64,000 bases of DNA from Actinocorallia herbida. GTDB lineage: Bacteria > Actinomycetota > Actinomycetes > Streptosporangiales > Streptosporangiaceae. The stretch spans positions 1,302,001 through 1,366,000 of the forward strand of contig NZ_RJKE01000001.1 of NCBI RefSeq assembly GCF_003751225.1. Direction: 5' to 3'. Positions 1,840 to 12,096 of the stretch are shown in pieces. The notes beneath the pieces were generated by a model, which was not told where the DNA came from, did not search any database, and worked only from the letters and a program-made list of their open reading frames with translations. A program made the translations under genes and the position numbers. How positions within the stretch are numbered: the stretch's first letter is position 1; the number at the start of each line of letters is the position of its first letter.

Positions 1840-2142
1840 TTATTCCGCGACCACCGCCGCCGAGTACGCGTGGGGTGCGATGTGCACATGAAGGCTCCTT
1901 CCCGCCGCCGGATCGAAGATCACCTGAACCTCGGGAAAGGCGCTTCGGAAGTACTGGCCGACCCCCAGCCGGGCCCGGAACGGGCCGTCGCCCGGCGCGT
2001 CGAAGGCGATCCGCCCGGCCGCGTCGGTGACGTCCTCGCCGACGGGTCCCCAGGTCGTGCCGTCGTAGGCGTCGAGCCGGGCCGGGATGTCGCGGGCCGG
2101 CCGGCCCTGGACGGTGTCGACCACCTTGATCGTGATGCTCAT
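1840..2142 (-). CDS. Transthyretin-like / 5-hydroxyisourate hydrolase-like protein with altered active-site motifs
   Basis: This 100-residue protein has the length and fold signature of 5-hydroxyisourate hydrolase (HIUase), the enzyme after urate oxidase in purine breakdown. The N-terminus reads IKVVDTVQGRPARDIPARL, close to the family pattern HVLDTxxGxPAxxxxxxL. The catalytic His of that motif is Lys here (residue 6). The family ends in an invariant YRGS; this protein ends AYSAAVVAE instead. It may be an inactive or re-purposed HIUase paralogue. GGGAGGATG lies just upstream of the ATG. The divergent pucR start is only 32 bp away, so the two promoters must overlap. It is probably co-transcribed with the purine permease. 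Confidence 0.8.
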   Translation of the reverse strand: MSITIKVVDTVQGRPARDIPARLDAYDGTTWGPVGEDVTDAAGRIAFDAPGDGPFRARLGVGQYFRSAFPEVQVIFDPAAGRSLHVHIAPHAYSAAVVAE

Positions 2143-2174
2143 GCCCCCATCCTCCCGCCCACTAGCCTGGGCCT

Positions 2175-3707
2175 GTGCGATTGAGGGACCTCTTGGAGAT
2201 GGGCGAGCTGGGCCTCGTGCTGCTTTCCGGCGAGCACGCGCTCGACCGGCCGATCCGCTGGGTGTACCTCACCGAGCTCGTCGAGACCGGCCGCTACCTG
2301 TCCGGCAACGAGCTGGTGCTCACCGGGCTGATCGGGCCGCAGTTGCGCGAGCGCCCCGAGGACCTCGTCGACGATCTCGTCGACGCCGGGGCGACCGCCC
2401 TGGGCGTCGGGCTGTCGGAGCACGACGAGGTGCCCGCCCGGGTGCGCGAGGCGTGCGCGCGGCGCGGGCTGCCGCTGCTGGAGGTCTCCCGGGAGCTGTC
2501 CTTCGGCGCGATCAGCGAGCTGGTCACCCGGCGGCTCACCACCGAGCGCGCCGCGGGCCTCGCCACGGTCCTGGGCCGGCACCGGCGGCTGATCGCCTCG
2601 GTCGCCGAGGGCTCGGGGCTGGAGTCGGTCTTCAAGGTGACCCAGGCGGAGCTGGGCCGCGCCTGCTGGGTGCTGTCCCCGACCGGCCGGGTGGTGGTCG
2701 GCCCCGGCCAGGACCCGCCGGACGCCCGGCGGCTCGCCGCCGAGTACCTCACCGCGGCCCGGCTTCCGCAGGTCGTCATGGGCGGGCCGGAGGGGCCCCG
2801 GACCCTTCTGCCGATCAACAGCAGGGCCGCGCACCGCGTCGCGGGCTGGTTCCTGGCCTGCGAGGGGGAGCTGGCCGACCTGCCGGATGAGGTGCGCGAG
2901 TCCGCCCACGAGCTCGCCGCCCTCGCCGCGCTGGAGCGGGCGAGGCTGGAGGAGGGCCAGAAGGTCGAGCGGCGGCTGCTCGGCGAGCTGCTCGACCCGG
3001 CGCTGACCGAGCCCGCCGAGATCGGCGCGCGGATGCGGACCTGCGGGCTCGACCCGGCCCGTCCCTTCGTCGCGGTGGCCTGCGCGCTAGGGGACGCCTA
3101 CGGCACCGACACGGCGGAGGGCGTCGAGGTGCTGCGCGAGCTGATGCCCGAGGCGACCGCGGTCACCGCGATCGAGGGCGAGGCGGTGACGGTCGTGCGG
3201 GCCGAGGACGGCGTCCAGGGGCTGGTGGAGCGCCTCCGGGAGGCCGCGGTGCTACTGGAGGCCGGGCTGGTCCGCGAACGTCTCACCGTGGGCGTGAGCG
3301 GCCCGGCGACCGGGCCGTCGATGCTGCGGGGCGCGGTCGAGGAGGCCAGGCACACCCGGCGGCTCGCCGCGGCCCGCCGGGCCGGGCGCGCCCATGTGGT
3401 GACCAGCGACGAGATCCACTCGCACGCGCTGCTGCTGGCCACCGTGCCCGACGGGGTGCGCCGCTCGTTCCGGGAGCGGCTGCTGCGCCCCCTCCAGGAC
3501 TACGACAGCGAGCACAACTCCGACCTCGTGGCGACCCTCGCGGCCTTCCTCGACCACTCCGGATCCTGGAACAAGTGCGCCGCGGCGCTGCACCTGCACG
3601 TCAACACCCTGCGGTACCGGATCCGGCGGGTGGAGGAGCTGACGGGCCGGGATCTCTCGACTTTGGAGGACAGAGTCGACTTTTTCCTGGCACTTCGTGC
3701 GATGTAA
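2175..3707 (+). CDS. PucR-family transcriptional regulator
   Basis: This 510-residue regulator has the PucR layout. An N-terminal purine-catabolism sensor domain (about residues 1-120) starts MRLRDLLEMGELGLVLLSG, a GGDEF-like middle region follows, and the C-terminal helix-turn-helix contains NKCAAALHLHVNTLRYRIRR. PucR proteins activate or repress purine-use genes in response to pathway intermediates. The GTG start begins the conserved domain directly. It is transcribed away from the HIUase-like gene and permease across a 32-bp gap, so it very likely controls them and itself. The next coding gene on this strand is the XRE-TPR regulator. Confidence 0.9.
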   Translation: MRLRDLLEMGELGLVLLSGEHALDRPIRWVYLTELVETGRYLSGNELVLTGLIGPQLRERPEDLVDDLVDAGATALGVGLSEHDEVPARVREACARRGLPLLEVSRELSFGAISELVTRRLTTERAAGLATVLGRHRRLIASVAEGSGLESVFKVTQAELGRACWVLSPTGRVVVGPGQDPPDARRLAAEYLTAARLPQVVMGGPEGPRTLLPINSRAAHRVAGWFLACEGELADLPDEVRESAHELAALAALERARLEEGQKVERRLLGELLDPALTEPAEIGARMRTCGLDPARPFVAVACALGDAYGTDTAEGVEVLRELMPEATAVTAIEGEAVTVVRAEDGVQGLVERLREAAVLLEAGLVRERLTVGVSGPATGPSMLRGAVEEARHTRRLAAARRAGRAHVVTSDEIHSHALLLATVPDGVRRSFRERLLRPLQDYDSEHNSDLVATLAAFLDHSGSWNKCAAALHLHVNTLRYRIRRVEELTGRDLSTLEDRVDFFLALRAM

Positions 3708-3725
3708 GGGCGGACCGCTGCCGAA

Positions 3726-3866
3726 TCAGCAACAATGCACGCGCGGGCCGATGCCACTGGGCGTGGCGTGGGCGGTCGCGGGTGCCAGAAGGAGTCCGAA
3801 GGCTCCCGAGATCGTCAGGACCGCCACGGCGGCCCGAACGGCGATGACTGTGCGCTTACGGTTCAT
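3726..3866 (-). CDS. Small secreted peptide (46 residues), divergent from an XRE-TPR regulator
   Basis: This short reading frame has a textbook Sec signal peptide: a charged start MNRKRTVIAVR, a hydrophobic core AAVAVLTISGAFGLLLAP, and an Ala-x-Ala cleavage site TAHA near residue 34. The predicted released peptide is TPSGIGPRVHCC, twelve residues ending in two cysteines. The ATG lies 28 bp from the start of the XRE-TPR regulator, head to head. No clear ribosome site precedes it, so translation may be leaderless. The layout of an HTH-TPR regulator beside a secreted short peptide is that of RRNPP peptide-pheromone systems. The pairing is inference; the reading frame and signal peptide are seen directly. 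Chance is possible for an ORF this short. Confidence 0.55.
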   Translation of the reverse strand: MNRKRTVIAVRAAVAVLTISGAFGLLLAPATAHATPSGIGPRVHCC

Positions 3867-3894
3867 GACTGGAAGCTAAGAGGAGCGGGCGGCA

Positions 3895-5190
3895 GTGAGT
3901 CAAGAGACTCTGGGGGACCGGATCAGGAATCTCCGGATCAAGCTGGGCGTCAGCCAGGCACAGCTGGCCTTTCCCGAACTGTCGGACAGCTATATCTCAC
4001 TGATCGAGAGCGACAAGCGGGTCCCCGCGCCGAGCGTCATCGAGCTCCTCGCGCGCAAGCTCAACTGTTCGGCGACCTACCTCGTCAGCGGCGTCAGCGA
4101 GGACATCGTCGACGAGCTGCGGGTCACCCTGGAGTACGCGGAGATCGCCCTCCAGAACGGCGCGGCGGCCGAGGCCCGCGACAGGTTCGCCGAGGTGCTC
4201 GCGCACTCCGACGCGCTGGCGCTGCCCGACATGCTCAAGCAGGCCCGCTGGGGCCACGCGCTCGCGCTGGAGGCCGGCGGCGCGCTGGAGGAGGCGATCA
4301 CCGCCCTGCGCGAGATCTCCTCGGGGGCGTCCCTGGAGTACGACCGGGACCACTGGACCCGTGCGCACGTGGCGCTCAGCCGTTGCCTGCGCGAGCGCGG
4401 CGACACCAGCGCGGGCGTCCAGGTGGCCGAGGAGGCCCTGCGCCGCCTGGCGATCGCGGGCGGCGAGTTCACCGACGCCGCGGTGCACCTGGGCGCGACC
4501 CTGCTCGGCTGCTGCATCGAGCGCGGCGACCTGGTGCGCGCCGGACAGCTCGCCGACGACCTGATCTCCCGGGCGGAGCGGATCGGCACCGTCCAGGCCA
4601 GGATCGCCGCCTACTGGGAGGCCGCCTACGTCGCGGAGATGCGCGGCGAGTACGAGCGCGGCGTCGCGCAGGCCGAACGGGCGCTGAGCCTTCTGGGCGA
4701 GGACGAGGACGCGCGCAACCTGTCCCGCCTCAAGCTCGCCTACGCCTCGCTGCTCCTGCGCGCCCGTCCGTCGGAGGCCCAGCGCGCGCGCGAGGTGCTC
4801 GTGCAGGCGCGCGCCGGGATAGAGGGGAGCGCCGCCGGCGAGGTCGACACCGCCTGGTGCCTGACCGAGCTGGCCCGCGCCGAGACGATGCTGGGCCGTC
4901 CGGCCGAGGCGATCGAGCTGGCCGGGCAGGCGCTCGCGCTGCTGGGCGAGGAGCCCCGCCGCTCGTCGGCCTGGGCGCTGACGGTCCTGGGGGAGGCGCA
5001 CGTGCGGCTGGGCCGCCGCGGCGAGGCGCTGGGGTTCCTCACCAAGGCGGCGACCTGCCTTGAGGAGATGGAGTCCACCCGCGACGCCGCTCAGGCGTGG
5101 TTCGACCTCGCCGAGCTGCTGGGGGAGACCGGCGAGGAGGGCCAGCGGCGCGACGCCTACCGCCGCGCCCTGGCCTGCGTCGGCCTCTGA
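3895..5190 (+). CDS. XRE-family DNA-binding regulator with C-terminal TPR array
   Basis: This 431-residue protein has an N-terminal Cro/C1-type HTH (about residues 7-62, with LGVSQAQLA and YISLIESDKRVPAPSVIELL). About 350 residues of alanine-rich helical repeats follow, typical of tetratricopeptide repeats (for example GRPAEAIELAGQALALLGEE, then LGRRGEALGFLTKAATCLEEM). It probably binds DNA and senses a small ligand or peptide with the TPR part. The GTG start is fixed by an in-frame TAA 18 bases upstream, and AGGAG lies about ten bases before it. The divergent partner is the 46-residue secreted peptide gene. Similar HTH-TPR proteins are common orphan regulators in actinomycetes, so function stays open. 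Confidence 0.88.
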   Translation: MSQETLGDRIRNLRIKLGVSQAQLAFPELSDSYISLIESDKRVPAPSVIELLARKLNCSATYLVSGVSEDIVDELRVTLEYAEIALQNGAAAEARDRFAEVLAHSDALALPDMLKQARWGHALALEAGGALEEAITALREISSGASLEYDRDHWTRAHVALSRCLRERGDTSAGVQVAEEALRRLAIAGGEFTDAAVHLGATLLGCCIERGDLVRAGQLADDLISRAERIGTVQARIAAYWEAAYVAEMRGEYERGVAQAERALSLLGEDEDARNLSRLKLAYASLLLRARPSEAQRAREVLVQARAGIEGSAAGEVDTAWCLTELARAETMLGRPAEAIELAGQALALLGEEPRRSSAWALTVLGEAHVRLGRRGEALGFLTKAATCLEEMESTRDAAQAWFDLAELLGETGEEGQRRDAYRRALACVGL

Positions 5191-5241
5191 CGCCCCCGGA
5201 TGGGGCGAGAGAGCCGAGACGAGATCACGGAGCAGACGGAA

Positions 5242-5270
5242 AAGCCCGGTCCCTCCGAGGGGCCGGGCTT
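5242..5270. terminator. Hairpin terminator between XRE-TPR gene and gtrA
   Basis: Arms AAGCCCGG (5242-5249) and CCGGGCTT (5263-5270) pair perfectly around a 13-base loop. The hairpin sits between the convergent ends of the XRE-TPR regulator and the GtrA gene. There is no T-tract, as is common in high-GC actinomycetes. Confidence 0.6.
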
Positions 5271-5332
5271 CGTCGTGCGGGTGTCGGCGTGCGGTGCGGT
5301 CAGGCGGGTGATGCGTCAGGCGGGTGGTGCGG

Positions 5333-5836
5333 TCAGGCCGCGAGGGCGACGGTGTCGCGGTCGTCCAGGCCGCCGAGGCGCTTGGAGAAGACCATGATGC
5401 GCAGGACGATGAAGCGCACGGTCCCCGCGACGGCGGACGCGACGAGGTAGACGCTCTGGTCCAGCAGGACGCTCGGGTTCGGGTGGAGGGCGCGCAGCAC
5501 GATCATCGCCACCGACGTCGCCGCGAACGCCCCGAAGGCGGTCAGCGCCGACTCGGCGTGCATCCGGAGACCGCGCCTTCCGCTGCGGAAGGTGATCTTG
5601 CGGTGCAGCTCGGTCGACAGGATGGTGCCGACCACGGTGATCAGGGCGTTGACCGCGACGAGCTGCGCCGGGACGTCGCTGACCACACCGAAGAGGGAGA
5701 GGAGGACGCTGGACAGCACGGTCACTCCGCCGCCCAGGGCCACGAAGAACACGAAGGAGCGGACCGGTCCCGGCATCGCCGGTCCGGTCTGACCTGGAAG
5801 GGGCCTTTCGGTCCCGGGGGGGTTCCCTACGCTCAT
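5333..5836 (-). CDS. GtrA-family membrane protein
   Basis: This protein of about 167 residues has four hydrophobic segments, with the family pattern FVFFVALGGGVTVLSSVLLS at the first helix and FIVLRIMVFSKR at the last. GtrA-like proteins are small four-helix membrane proteins, often linked to moving polyprenyl-linked sugars across the membrane for cell-wall or polysaccharide glycosylation. I chose the ATG at 5836 (MSVGNPPGTERP). A longer version from 5914 would add 26 residues that look like upstream AT-rich promoter DNA. No glycosyltransferase is adjacent, so its sugar partner is unknown. It ends convergently with the XRE-TPR gene. Confidence 0.85.
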   Translation of the reverse strand: MSVGNPPGTERPLPGQTGPAMPGPVRSFVFFVALGGGVTVLSSVLLSLFGVVSDVPAQLVAVNALITVVGTILSTELHRKITFRSGRRGLRMHAESALTAFGAFAATSVAMIVLRALHPNPSVLLDQSVYLVASAVAGTVRFIVLRIMVFSKRLGGLDDRDTVALAA

Positions 5837-6012
5837 GATCCCAACGCTATCGACAGTCACTGACACTTTTAACGTCCTGCTCACCATAGCCTTGAACCGA
5901 TGCTTCAGATACAACCGTTTCTTGTCTCTTTCGTCACTCCCGCGTGAGAAGGAGATCGGTATGGCACCTGCGGGTGAGCCGACCCTGAGTGCGCTGCTGG
6001 CACCATGAGGGG

Positions 6013-7185
6013 GTGAGACCGCTCCGCCCCCTTTACGCCGGACTGACCTGGCGCAGGTGGACGTTCCTGCTGCTCGGTGGGCTGCTCTGCGCGCCGACGG
6101 CGGTCGTCGTCGCCTTCGTCGGGGGGACCGCCAACGCCCTGCTGCGCCCCGAGGCGCTGGCCATCGGGGTGACCTTCGGCGTGAGCCTGCTGCTCATGGC
6201 GGGTCTCGGGCTGCTGCCCGTGGTGCGCAAGCTCGAAGGGGCGGTCGCGGCGGAGCTGCTGGGGGCGCCCCAGGTGATCGGCACCTGCGCGCGCTGGCCG
6301 GCCCGGCTGCGCGCGGCGGTCTGGTTCGTCGGGCACCTGTTCTGCGGGGCGCTGGCCTGCGGCGCGACGATCTTCGCGCCGCCCGCGATCGGCTACGGCC
6401 TGATCCGGCCGCTGCTGGCGAAGGACGCCATGATCTGGCCGTCGCTGCTCGGCCTCGTGGTGATCCCCGCGTTCCTCTACGGGATCGTCCTCGCGGGCCA
6501 TCTGGCCGCCCGCGTCGCGGAGTGGGCGCTCGGGCCGTCGGCGCAGGAGCGGGTGGAGGCCGCGGAGCGGCGGGCATCGGTGCAGGTGGAGCGCACCAGG
6601 CTGGCCCGGGAGCTGCACGACTCGGTCGGCCACGCGCTCAGCATCGTCACCGTGCAGTCGGCCGCCGCCGAGCGGATACTCGACCGCGACCCCGACTTCG
6701 CGCGGCAGGCGCTCAAGGCGATCGAGGAGTCGGCGCGGACCGCGCTGGAGGACCTCGACCATGTGCTCGGCCTCCTCCGTGAGGAGGAGTCCGCCCGAGC
6801 CCCGCAGCGCACCTTGCGCGACCTCGACGACCTGCTGGCCAAGACCGGTCTCGACATCCGGGTGGACCGCGACGGCGACCTCGACCGGCTGCCCTCGGCG
6901 GTGTCCCGCGAGGCGTACCGGATCATCCAGGAGGGCCTGACCAACGTGGCCAAGCACGCCGGGCACGTCCCGGTGGACCTGCGGCTCAGCGCCAGGCCCG
7001 GCGTCCTCGACCTGGAGCTGCGCAACCCGATGGGGGCGCGCACCCACGGCCGCGACACCGGCGGCCGGGGCCTGGCCGGGCTCAGCGAGCGCGTCGGCGT
7101 CCTCGCCGGCCGGATCAGCGCCGGCGCGCTGGACGGCCACTGGCGGCTGGCCGCCTCGATTCCACTGCCTAAGGGGACCGCATGA
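6013..7185 (+). CDS. NarL-type sensor histidine kinase
   Basis: This membrane histidine kinase of about 390 residues has hydrophobic helices in residues 15-165. A HisKA_3 dimerisation domain follows, with the phosphorylated His in LARELHDSVGHAL (about H202). The ATPase domain has the N-box EGLTNVAKHAG and a glycine-rich GGRGLAGLSERVGVL. Such kinases (DesK/LiaS/NarX-like) phosphorylate a partner LuxR-type response regulator. The start GTG at 6013 gives MRPLRPLYAG; an upstream GTG is in frame but adds residues without a conserved look. The stop overlaps the next ATG by four bases, so the pair is translationally coupled. No input ligand can be deduced. Confidence 0.93.
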   Translation: MRPLRPLYAGLTWRRWTFLLLGGLLCAPTAVVVAFVGGTANALLRPEALAIGVTFGVSLLLMAGLGLLPVVRKLEGAVAAELLGAPQVIGTCARWPARLRAAVWFVGHLFCGALACGATIFAPPAIGYGLIRPLLAKDAMIWPSLLGLVVIPAFLYGIVLAGHLAARVAEWALGPSAQERVEAAERRASVQVERTRLARELHDSVGHALSIVTVQSAAAERILDRDPDFARQALKAIEESARTALEDLDHVLGLLREEESARAPQRTLRDLDDLLAKTGLDIRVDRDGDLDRLPSAVSREAYRIIQEGLTNVAKHAGHVPVDLRLSARPGVLDLELRNPMGARTHGRDTGGRGLAGLSERVGVLAGRISAGALDGHWRLAASIPLPKGTA

Positions 7186-7820
7186 CCTCCGTGCTCATCG
7201 TCGACGACGAGCGGCTGATCCGCGCCGGACTCGCCGCCATCGTCGGCGCCGAACCCGACCTCACCGTGGTGGGCCAGGCAGGGGACGGGGCCGAGGCGCG
7301 CCTGGAGTCCGCCCGGCTGGCCCCGGACGTCGTGCTCATGGACGTGCGGATGCCCGGCGCCGACGGCCTCGAGGCGACCCGCGCGATCCTCGCCGAGCAG
7401 CCGGACCCGCCCAAGATCCTCGTGCTGACGACCTTCGAGAACGACGACTACGTCTACGACGCGCTGCGGGTCGGCGCCAGCGGCTTCCTCCTCAAGCGCT
7501 CCCGCCCCGAGGAGATCCTCCAGGCGATCAGGCTCGTCGTGCAGGGCGACATGCTCCTGTTCCCCGCCGCCATCCGCGCCCTCGCCGTGCCCCGCGCCAC
7601 CCACGCCCGCGTCCGCTGGCACGGCGACCTCACCGACCGTGAAGCCGAAGTCCTCCGCCTCATGGCGACCGGCCTCTCGAACGCCGAGATAGCCGAAACC
7701 CTCTTCCTGAGCCTCCAGACCATCAAGACCCACGTCGGCAACCTCCTGGCCAAACTCGGCGCCCGCGACCGCACCCAAGCCGTGATCTTCGCCTACGAGA
7801 CCGGCTTCATACCGCGCTGA
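7182..7820 (+). CDS. NarL/FixJ-family response regulator
   Basis: This 212-residue regulator has an N-terminal receiver domain with acidic pocket IVDDE and phospho-acceptor D54 in VVLMDVRMPG. A conserved Thr follows in VLTTFEN, and a Lys in FLLKRSRPEE. The C-terminal LuxR-type HTH reads LTDREAEVLRLMATGLSNAE and then TIKTHVGNLLAKLGARDRTQ. It is the cognate partner of the overlapping histidine kinase (ATGA overlap). Its targets are not obvious. The upstream gtrA gene faces away and the downstream gene encodes a secreted glycerophosphodiesterase. Confidence 0.95.
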   Translation: MTSVLIVDDERLIRAGLAAIVGAEPDLTVVGQAGDGAEARLESARLAPDVVLMDVRMPGADGLEATRAILAEQPDPPKILVLTTFENDDYVYDALRVGASGFLLKRSRPEEILQAIRLVVQGDMLLFPAAIRALAVPRATHARVRWHGDLTDREAEVLRLMATGLSNAEIAETLFLSLQTIKTHVGNLLAKLGARDRTQAVIFAYETGFIPR

Positions 7821-8143
7821 ACCGCGCCGCCTCCGGCGTCGCGGTGATCGGGCGCTCGGGCGCCCCGGTGCGGTTCCTCGTCAAGGCCCGCGGCGGGTGG
7901 CGGGGCTGGAACCCTTCCCGGGGGTCGGGGGTCGGGGGTCGGGGGTCGGGGGCGGAACAGTGGCGGTGGGGCGGCGGTGGGGTGTCCGGAAAGTGTGCTT
8001 TTGGTGGTGTAAGTCACTGTTAATTTGGTGGTTCGGGCAAGATCGTGCGGTTGTGGCCGGGTGTTTCGGTCGTCCACTTAGCGTCCGCCGGTGTGACAAG
8101 AACTCCTCTGACGCAGGGCCTTCCCTCCGGTAAGACGATCTCC
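7821..8143. other. Intergenic stretch between response regulator and glycerophosphodiesterase
   Basis: About 320 bases without a convincing gene. It holds an imperfect hairpin just after the response-regulator stop (7820-7845), the G-run repeat at 7920-7952, and a relatively AT-rich patch near 8010-8035 (CACTGTTAATTTGG) that is the best candidate for the promoter of the downstream gene. A GTG at 8045 could extend the downstream protein by 33 residues, but the signal peptide argues for the later start. Confidence 0.6.
7920..7952 (+). repeat. Tandem GGGGGTC repeat, potential G-quadruplex
   Basis: Five runs of five guanines are separated by TC (four exact 7-base units plus a final G5). Any four runs satisfy the usual G-quadruplex pattern with two-base loops. 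It lies on the non-template strand, about 190 bases upstream of the glycerophosphodiesterase start. Confidence 0.85.
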
Positions 8144-10125: not shown

Positions 10126-12096
10126 TCACTTCTCGGCGTTCTTGCCGAGGCCGCTCAGCATCTCGTTGTACTCGGCGAGTTCGGCGTCCTCGTCCCGCTC
10201 GGCGTTCCGGTCGGTGCGGCGGGCCTGCCGGGTGTCCGACATCGCCCACTGCGCCACGATCGCGATGATCACGATGAAGGTCGGGATCTCCCCGAAGCCC
10301 CAGGCGATGGCGCCGCCCGTCTGGACGTCGTCCACGATCGGCCCGGCCCACGGCGGGTAGACGATCTTGTACCAGTCCGGTGCGATCGGCTCGCCCATGT
10401 TCATCATGGCGAGGCCGAGGAACGCGTGGAACGGCATGGTGACGAACAGCAGCAGCAGCCGCCACGGGTAGCCCAGCGGCTTCGGCGCGGGGTCGATCCC
10501 GATGATCACCCAATAGAACAGGTAGCCGCTCAGCAGGAAGTGCATGAGCATGGCGATGTGGCCGAGGTGGTTGCCCATCAGCCACTCGAAGGCGGAGCTG
10601 TAGTACAGCGCCCAGGTGCTGCCCATGAACAGGATCGTGGCGGTCGCCGGGTGCGCGATGACCTTGGTGTAGCGGCTGTGCAGGGCCGCGGTCAGCCACT
10701 CGCGCGGCCCCCTGTCGCCGCGGACCTTGGCCGGCTTGAGCGCGCGCAGCGCCAGCGTCATGGGTGCGCCGAGCACGAGGAAGATCGGCGTGACCATGGC
10801 GATGAGCATGTGCTGGACCATGTGGACGCTGAACATCAGCGGCGCGTAGGTGGCCAGGCCGCTGAGCGTCGCGACGACGATCGTGGCGAGCCCGATCAGC
10901 CAGAACACGGTCCGGTGCCAGGGCCAGGCGTCGCCGCGCCGCCGCAGCCGGACGACCCCGGCGAGGTAGAACCCGCCGAGGGCGAGGACCAGGACCATCC
11001 AGAACAGGTCGAACCGCCACAGCGAGGCGAGGTTGGCGACGTCGAGCAGCGGCGGCATGTCGTAGCCGAGGAGCGTCTTGACGGTGCTCTCGGCCTCCAG
11101 CGACGTCACCGGGGGCGCGGTCTGCGCGAGCGCGACGGCGAGGCCCATCGTGGCCGCCATGATGGCGACCTCGACGGCGGCGAGCCGGGCGAACGCCCGC
11201 GGCTTGCGCTCGGCGATCAGCGGGATGGTCTTCTCGCGGTGCCGGTGCCCGATCCACACCAGGACGGCGAAGGCCGCCATCTTGGCGAGGACGAGCCGTC
11301 CGTAGTCGGTCTCGAAGAGCTGGAGGGGGTCGGGCAGCCGGGAGAGCGTGCTGGCCAGGCCGGAGAGCCCGACGATGATCGCGCACCACAGCGCGAGGGT
11401 GCTGAACCGGGCGGCGGCGGTCTCCAGCAGCCGGCCCTTGGTGAGCGCGTGCCAGGCGAGCACGGCGAGGCCGCCGACCCAAGGGACCACCGCGGCGAGG
11501 TGCAGCGCCAGGCCGATCATGGCGAGGGAGTGGTTGGGGGAGGAGGCCGAGTGGCCCGTCAGCGCGGGCGGCAGCAGCGCGAGGAAGGACAGCGCGAGCA
11601 GGCCGAGCCCGGCGGCCGGGGTGTCGACGGTCCGGCCGAGCAGCGCGACCACCACGGTGGCGAGGATCACCAGCAGCAGCGCGGTGCCCTGCGGGAGCTG
11701 CCCGACGTAGCTCGACAGCTCGTTGCCGCGCAGCAGCCCGGTGACGTTCACCCCGAGGATGTCGGCGACGGTGAACACCAGGGTGGCCCCGGCGGCGCAG
11801 GCCCAGACCGCGGCGCACCAGGAGGCCGCGCGCAGGTAGTTCTGCGCGGCGGAGGTGAGGCCGTCGCGGATCAGCGGCAGCAGGATCACCGCCATGACCA
11901 GGCAGCCGACGGTGAGCGCGGCGGCGAGGTCCATGACGGTCCGGGCGGCGGGCAGGCCCCAGCGGACGAGTTCGCCCGCGTCGCCGATGCCGGGGATGAC
12001 CTTCTCGGCGAGGGAGCCGCCCGCGTACAGCGCGGCGACGAGGCCGAAGACCGCCGCCAGCGCGGCCACCGCGGCGGCGCGGTAGGCGCTACGCAT
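10126..12096 (-). CDS. CopD / CtaG fusion membrane protein (copper resistance and cytochrome oxidase assembly)
   Basis: This membrane protein of 656 residues joins two families. The N-terminal half (about 1-330) is CopD-like, with helices and conserved His such as ALTGHSASSPNHSLAMIGL and LHLAAVVPWVGGLAVL. The C-terminal half (about 350-620) is a caa3-type oxidase assembly (CtaG) domain, with FSVHMVQHMLIAMVTPIFL, HPATATILFMGS and LMHFLLSGYLFYW. The protein probably moves copper across the membrane and delivers it to cytochrome oxidase. The tail after 630 is acidic and polar. Its start overlaps the end of copC by eight bases, so the two are one operon. Fusions of this kind are common in actinomycetes. 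Confidence 0.92.
   Translation of the reverse strand: MRSAYRAAAVAALAAVFGLVAALYAGGSLAEKVIPGIGDAGELVRWGLPAARTVMDLAAALTVGCLVMAVILLPLIRDGLTSAAQNYLRAASWCAAVWACAAGATLVFTVADILGVNVTGLLRGNELSSYVGQLPQGTALLLVILATVVVALLGRTVDTPAAGLGLLALSFLALLPPALTGHSASSPNHSLAMIGLALHLAAVVPWVGGLAVLAWHALTKGRLLETAAARFSTLALWCAIIVGLSGLASTLSRLPDPLQLFETDYGRLVLAKMAAFAVLVWIGHRHREKTIPLIAERKPRAFARLAAVEVAIMAATMGLAVALAQTAPPVTSLEAESTVKTLLGYDMPPLLDVANLASLWRFDLFWMVLVLALGGFYLAGVVRLRRRGDAWPWHRTVFWLIGLATIVVATLSGLATYAPLMFSVHMVQHMLIAMVTPIFLVLGAPMTLALRALKPAKVRGDRGPREWLTAALHSRYTKVIAHPATATILFMGSTWALYYSSAFEWLMGNHLGHIAMLMHFLLSGYLFYWVIIGIDPAPKPLGYPWRLLLLFVTMPFHAFLGLAMMNMGEPIAPDWYKIVYPPWAGPIVDDVQTGGAIAWGFGEIPTFIVIIAIVAQWAMSDTRQARRTDRNAERDEDAELAEYNEMLSGLGKNAEK

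Follow-up and report, generated by a model that had tools for sequence, protein, structure and literature searches.

The question raised by a short open reading frame that lies head to head with a transcriptional regulator in Actinocorallia herbida is whether the two genes encode the halves of a peptide signalling system, the one a secreted propeptide and the other the intracellular receptor that would read it. Accounts of cell-cell signalling in antibiotic-producing actinomycetes deal almost entirely with small molecules, gamma-butyrolactones among them (PMC10075063, PMC13220807): a survey of RRNPP systems treats the signals of Actinomycetota as typically small molecules (PMC10075063), and a 2026 review assigns RRNPP to Firmicutes and gamma-butyrolactones to Streptomyces (PMC13220807). 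The initial annotation of the window (the whole stretch of DNA analysed, 64,000 nucleotides in length) held that no well-described pair of this kind is known from such actinomycetes, which agrees with the open-access literature, where no report of an actinomycete RRNPP pair of this kind was found (subscription journals and preprints lay outside the search). The features on which the argument turns are the following.

3726-3866, minus strand: propeptide gene of 46 codons, with a charged N-terminus, a hydrophobic core, an AHA motif and a 12-residue tail
3729-3749, minus strand: codons of the heptapeptide GPRVHCC, with the same residues and differing codons in six related loci
3867-3894, no strand: shared intergenic region of 28 bp, separating the peptide start from the regulator start
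3895-5190, plus strand: XRE-TPR regulator of 431 aa with a GTG start, recognized from Pfam, an AlphaFold2 model and a profile match to PlcR

The translation of the minus-strand frame (46 aa) is MNRKRTVIAVRAAVAVLTISGAFGLLLAPATAHA followed by TPSGIGPRVHCC, in which a positively charged N-terminus precedes the hydrophobic core, the AHA cleavage motif and the tail. If cleavage follows AHA, the mature product would be the 12-residue tail TPSGIGPRVHCC, as initially predicted. This is the sole signal-peptide-like short ORF with a CC end in the 64-kb window, and a protein search of relatives located it in the other two Actinocorallia genomes; regulator orthologues in three related MAGs likewise have an upstream signal-peptide ORF with a GPRVHCC end. 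Among the Actinocorallia genomes and the three MAGs the signal peptides have diverged strongly and the last seven residues are invariant, with synonymous variation in the GPRVHCC codons while the residues stay fixed in the six related loci. Between the two closest genomes, that of the window (G000) and G002, the peptide ORF differs at 11, 5 and 14 nucleotides at codon positions 1, 2 and 3 respectively, giving NG86 estimates of 0.19 for dN and 0.48 for dS. Purifying selection keeps the C-terminus of the peptide. The conservation of GPRVHCC through differing codons bears out the earlier call of a genuine gene with a signal-peptide-like N-terminus, and the comparison of sequences confirms that the ORF is a real, conserved gene. 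GPRVHCC, which was found once per genome in the three carrier genomes tested, is likely to be the core of the putative signal, the mature form of which may differ. Just before the convergent peptide gene, at 3657-3679 on the plus strand, the 3' end of the PucR coding sequence contains a stem-loop with a T run that resembles a terminator.

The pairing of such an ORF with the regulator is not confined to these close relatives. A short signal-peptide ORF also accompanies regulator homologues of 35-57% identity, both in Streptosporangiales and in several further families of actinomycetes: most of 40 further stretches from the same GTDB family (regulator identity about 40-57%) have a divergent one of 40-57 residues, nearly always CC-ended, and such an ORF again adjoins the regulator in a class-wide sample of homologues of 35-41% identity from several other families. 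Named carriers include Actinoallomurus, Microbispora, Planotetraspora, Rhizohabitans, Sphaerimonospora and Nonomuraea gerenzanensis. The aligned signal-peptide ORF with a conserved C-terminus that the initial annotation proposed to look for in related genomes is therefore present far beyond the genus. When signal peptides were called by charge and hydropathy (not by SignalP) and the C-terminus was not used for selection, 73 of 121 regulators had a divergent ORF of 35-60 aa with a strong signal peptide. Of these 73 ORFs, 67 end in CC; the remaining six comprise five with Trp-type or related tails from one variant clade and one that is unrelated. A CC end occurs in 0 of 106 signal-peptide-like ORFs of equal size in 580 kb around Actinomadura-type orthologues. 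A paralogue group of 33-35% identity, which includes a second copy in the window genome, has no CC ORF.

The orientation of the peptide ORF to the regulator is usually divergent, sometimes tandem (an upstream peptide in L145, and the Streptomyces plasmid loci L236 and L279) and sometimes convergent, with the peptide just downstream of the regulator (L115, L140, L142, L246). Because the linkage outlasts these changes of orientation, the two genes are better regarded as a functional pair than as an artefact of a shared promoter. In Streptomyces sp. ADI95-16 and Mg1, whose plasmids carry a regulator homologue, the next gene in tandem is annotated as a hypothetical protein of 71 residues and has a DIPLCC end.

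Several loci depart from the simple arrangement of one regulator and one peptide. The 71-aa DIPLCC ORF of the Streptomyces plasmid loci is accompanied by a second signal-peptide ORF of 70 aa (L236:5518-5733 and 5813-6025; L279:3038-3253 and 3333-3545), and at these same loci a BTAD/SARP-type regulator adjoins the XRE-TPR regulator and the peptide ORFs. Two tandem copies of the regulator are present in L085, L086 and L092. The two copies in L092 are each paired with a divergent CC peptide, the tails being DIACC and EPLCC, which is how a signalling pair might look once it had been duplicated and had diverged. In some f21 genomes (L122, L123, L125) a second signal-peptide ORF, convergent and with a GGSD(F/Y)CC end, lies just downstream of the regulator on the opposite strand.

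The short region between the two starts in the window contains two further elements.

3881-3885: AGGAG, read from the sequence as the Shine-Dalgarno motif of the regulator
3878-3873, minus strand: TAGCTT, a -10-like hexamer 6 nt before the ATG of the peptide gene

A scan for the sigma-70 consensus returned no site. A Shine-Dalgarno motif is absent before all three Actinocorallia copies of the peptide gene, and with TAGCTT placed 6 nt from the ATG the transcript in this genus may be leaderless. The earlier remark that no clear ribosome site is visible accordingly stands for the three Actinocorallia copies but does not carry over to the set as a whole, in which 58 of the 67 CC peptides are preceded by a Shine-Dalgarno-like motif. 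The word CTTGAC/GTCAAG is present in 44 of 70 intergenic regions compared to about 3 expected; no operator is claimed for it because it overlaps the first codons of the regulator.

Two explanations that would deny the ORF any role as a secreted peptide can be weighed against these data. The first, that it is a chance ORF above a conserved promoter or operator, draws on the shortness of the ORF, the missing ribosome site in Actinocorallia and the enrichment of GTCAAG at the locus; it fails to account for protein-level conservation of the C-terminus through synonymous changes, for the CC signature at 67 of 73 loci or for pairs that are tandem or convergent, and we treat it as ruled out by the conservation and the signature together, with a residual probability close to nil. 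The second takes the ORF to be a Cys-responsive leader, or attenuator, with the CC codons acting as a translation sensor. Cys codons do stand at the end of a short ORF, as this explanation needs, but there are just two of them, at the very end, and the N-terminus is that of a signal peptide. In the window the gene converges on PucR and is followed by no gene transcribed in the same direction, its orientation to the regulator varies between loci, and an Rfam search of 2000-8000 in the window gave no match. The leader explanation was rejected on orientation and is very improbable.

On the side of the regulator, two parts of the protein need to be located.

3922-4083, plus strand: Cro/C1-type HTH, residues 10-63, from Pfam
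4498-4740, plus strand: TPR patch, residues 202-282, a candidate ligand groove, from column association and model helices

Pfam assigns an N-terminal HTH_3/HTH_19 domain and TPR_12 repeats, in agreement with the head-to-head start across 28 bp with an HTH and TPR regulator that had been reported initially and that the coordinates reproduce. The AlphaFold2 model is all-helical, an HTH joined to a TPR superhelix, with a pLDDT of 91.8. By this architecture the protein is a putative intracellular peptide receptor and transcription factor. Its nearest named homologues are in Actinocorallia sp. API 0066 (94% identity) and A. populi (89%). PADLOC gave only weak HTH-type matches. An XRE-TPR relative of 36% identity occurs in an unannotated faecal ‘Bacteriophage sp.’ record (MT836207.1:104-1069).

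Among 429 alignment columns, those best associated with the presence of a CC peptide are 202, 275, 269, 238, 276, 282 and 242; T202 ranks first of all, and N275, A238 and N242 belong to the same TPR patch, the members of which are T202, A238, N242/E242, E269, N275, L276 and A282. The associated columns fall in TPRs that follow one another in the model (helices 194-210, 233-249, 253-266 and 273-290), residue 269 being in the loop between the helices 253-266 and 273-290, and from the helix order we infer that the patch is on the concave TPR face. Thr202 is 98% conserved in CC-bearing regulators class-wide; the residue is mostly Gln in the clade with LGW tails and mostly Ala in Actinomadura, both of which are lineages without a CC peptide. 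An independent-pair test of T202 in which relatedness is controlled gave 4.3 pairs for and 0.3 against, with a median p of 0.125, which is not significant. This covariation of columns is suggestive of a neighbouring TPR domain that reads the peptide.

The peptide tails vary in a manner that follows the regulators. Among 76 distinct CC peptides, which were selected on CC, the residue before CC is highly variable, often H, W, Y, F or G, and the tails follow the clades of the regulator tree: GPRVHCC, VFHCC, DNGCC, L(E/D)CC, PG(F/Y)CC, WPGMCC, PPTCC and PLCC. The residues before CC thus appear to be clade-specific, like pherotypes. One variant clade keeps the divergent signal-peptide ORF with an LGW-like tail in place of CC, for example QLGWGWPL, SFGWNHPG and NLGWGHAD (L088, L093, L095, L097, L104, L106, L107, L108), and its regulators are changed at TPR residues 202, 238, 242 and 275. 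A possible reading of this clade is a switch of pherotype chemistry.

The same tails can be considered from the standpoint of a second function, in which the CC peptide is a small effector that acts on the envelope, is antimicrobial or binds metal through its thiols, and the neighbouring XRE-TPR regulator controls its expression in answer to some other cue. Linkage and divergent promoters suit a regulator with its target gene, and copper or zinc might be bound by CC, or by the HCC of several clades; a gene that might fit such a function is found downstream of the regulator at many loci of Streptosporangiales.

10126-12096 of the window: CtaG/CopD-like cytochrome oxidase assembly gene, downstream of the regulator (loci L151-L228)

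The copper/CtaG link was considered and set aside, since this synteny is limited to Streptosporangiales, persists in Actinomadura despite the loss of the peptide, and is lacking around the f21 locus that was inspected. The residues before CC are variable and clade-specific, which is less conservation than one would expect of a metal site or an effector, and TPR residues of the regulator track the presence of the CC peptide. We consider the effector explanation unlikely, though it is the alternative that most deserves to be kept in mind, and we prefer a signal that is read by the adjoining regulator.

The regulator is not always accompanied by a peptide. In about 55 Actinomadura, Thermomonospora and Spirillospora species (L154-L208) it is kept with no signal-peptide ORF ending in CC within 5 kb. 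Relocation of the peptide gene was considered and rejected, a pattern encoding PRVHCC and a stop being found in 0 of 18 Actinomadura/Thermomonospora-type genomes, and none within 5 kb of the regulator. The Actinomadura-type regulators are nested among peptide-bearing lineages on the regulator tree, and the absence therefore points to loss of the peptide. A regulator retained without the small ORF was the pattern that the initial annotation had set against its own proposal; it does occur in these roughly 55 genomes, but as a nested loss, and with T202 changed in most of them. Retention of the peptide-less regulator in so many species indicates that it can function alone or answer another cue, and on the sequence comparison the Actinomadura-type regulators are a large set of orphan receptors. 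Their survival is also what would be expected if the peptide were an extracellular or membrane-acting signal for a different receptor and the XRE-TPR protein just autoregulated the locus. With no histidine kinase or other receptor consistently linked across families, and with TPR covariation that points to the adjoining regulator, this explanation is improbable, more so than that of an effector.

The best reading of the locus is accordingly an RRNPP-like pair of secreted peptide and intracellular receptor in Actinomycetota, which we regard as probable on the evidence of comparative sequence and predicted structure. We infer its steps (export, maturation, import, binding and gene targets) from the architecture of the pair and from RRNPP precedent. 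The small gene would yield a Sec-exported propeptide, which signal peptidase would cut near AHA and which a further protease would probably trim, possibly to about GPRVHCC; a C-terminal peptide containing GPRVHCC would build up outside the cell, be re-imported via an oligopeptide permease and bind the concave TPR groove of the adjoining regulator, and the HTH would then bind DNA differently, in the 28-bp intergenic region at the least and perhaps at other sites. The invariant Cys-Cys would serve as the family recognition signature and the residues just before it would set clade-specific specificity. The window genome encodes 26 SBP_bac_5 oligopeptide-binding proteins, which make import possible. 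Among the neighbours compared across families, none is a dedicated exporter or protease or an obvious target gene; the flanking genes in the window (a purine permease, PucR, a GtrA-like protein and a two-component system) are unremarkable, and other families have different ones.

The wider claim, that the pair represents an undescribed actinomycete-wide pheromone class of Sec-exported CC propeptides of about 40-70 residues and XRE-TPR receptors, with many pherotypes, a Trp-tail lineage and the Actinomadura orphan receptors, is one that we favour with slightly less assurance. If these readings are true, RRNPP-type signalling would reach a second phylum, and the CC could make the signal redox-dependent, a disulfide outside the cell and a dithiol inside. 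The constant Cys-Cys end defines peptides that are readily synthesised and testable, and since the pair occurs in natural-product-rich genera (Microbispora, Nonomuraea, Planotetraspora and Actinoallomurus), it could offer a way to switch on silent pathways or development.

It remains to place the pair among known systems. The nearest actinomycete precedent is BldK/Bld261 of Streptomyces coelicolor, where an imported oligopeptide has long been known as a developmental signal (PMC11303876, PMC4709908). No sequence link between that system and the CC pair is apparent. We know of no identified gene for the Bld261 signal and of no identified intracellular receptor for it. The NsdA-family TPR regulators of Streptomyces show partial TPR similarity to the regulator, which at 31 bits against a cut-off of 75 is not a member of that family (NF053720), nor, at 24 bits against a cut-off of 700, of RamB (NF038139).

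The regulator, for which the initial annotation proposed an RRNPP-like architecture, resembles PlcR, NprR and Rap in both sequence profile and fold. A profile of 38 regulators searched against the PDB has PlcR as its best natural match (2qfc, E 2.8e-13), followed among RRNPP proteins by NprR (1e-6) and RapJ (9e-6). In a fold search NprR (5dbk, Z 23.4), RapI (4i1a, Z 23.2) and RapJ-CSF (22.9) aligned over nearly the whole TPR region, the superhelix of which covers residues 66-431, but many eukaryotic TPR proteins tie with these scores, so that the fold match does not tell RRNPP receptors apart from other TPR proteins. TPR and HTH domains are also widespread, and a relationship to the known RRNPP receptors is possible rather than certain. 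By architecture the pair would work like an RRNPP system, of which it is a putative member.

NprR-NprX and Rap-Phr of Bacillus likewise have a TPR superhelix and a secreted propeptide encoded beside the receptor, but identity to NprR/Rap is about 9-14%, Rap is without an HTH, no phosphatase-type N-terminal bundle is seen in the actinomycete regulator, and the CC signature belongs to the new pair. ComRS and Rgg-SHP of Streptococcus, in another phylum, also combine an XRE-TPR regulator with an adjacent tiny propeptide; ComS and SHP are not known to carry classical Sec signal peptides, and the Trp-Trp near the C-terminus of some ComS/XIP offers a loose analogy to Cys-Cys. In PlcR-PapR of the Bacillus cereus group, as in the new pair, an N-terminal XRE HTH is joined to a TPR array, and the C-terminal end of a short Sec-exported propeptide encoded next to the receptor is the putative signal; the new pair differs from PlcR-PapR in its occurrence in Actinomycetota, its receptor of 431 residues with a longer TPR array, its divergent genes and the invariant Cys-Cys end of its propeptide.
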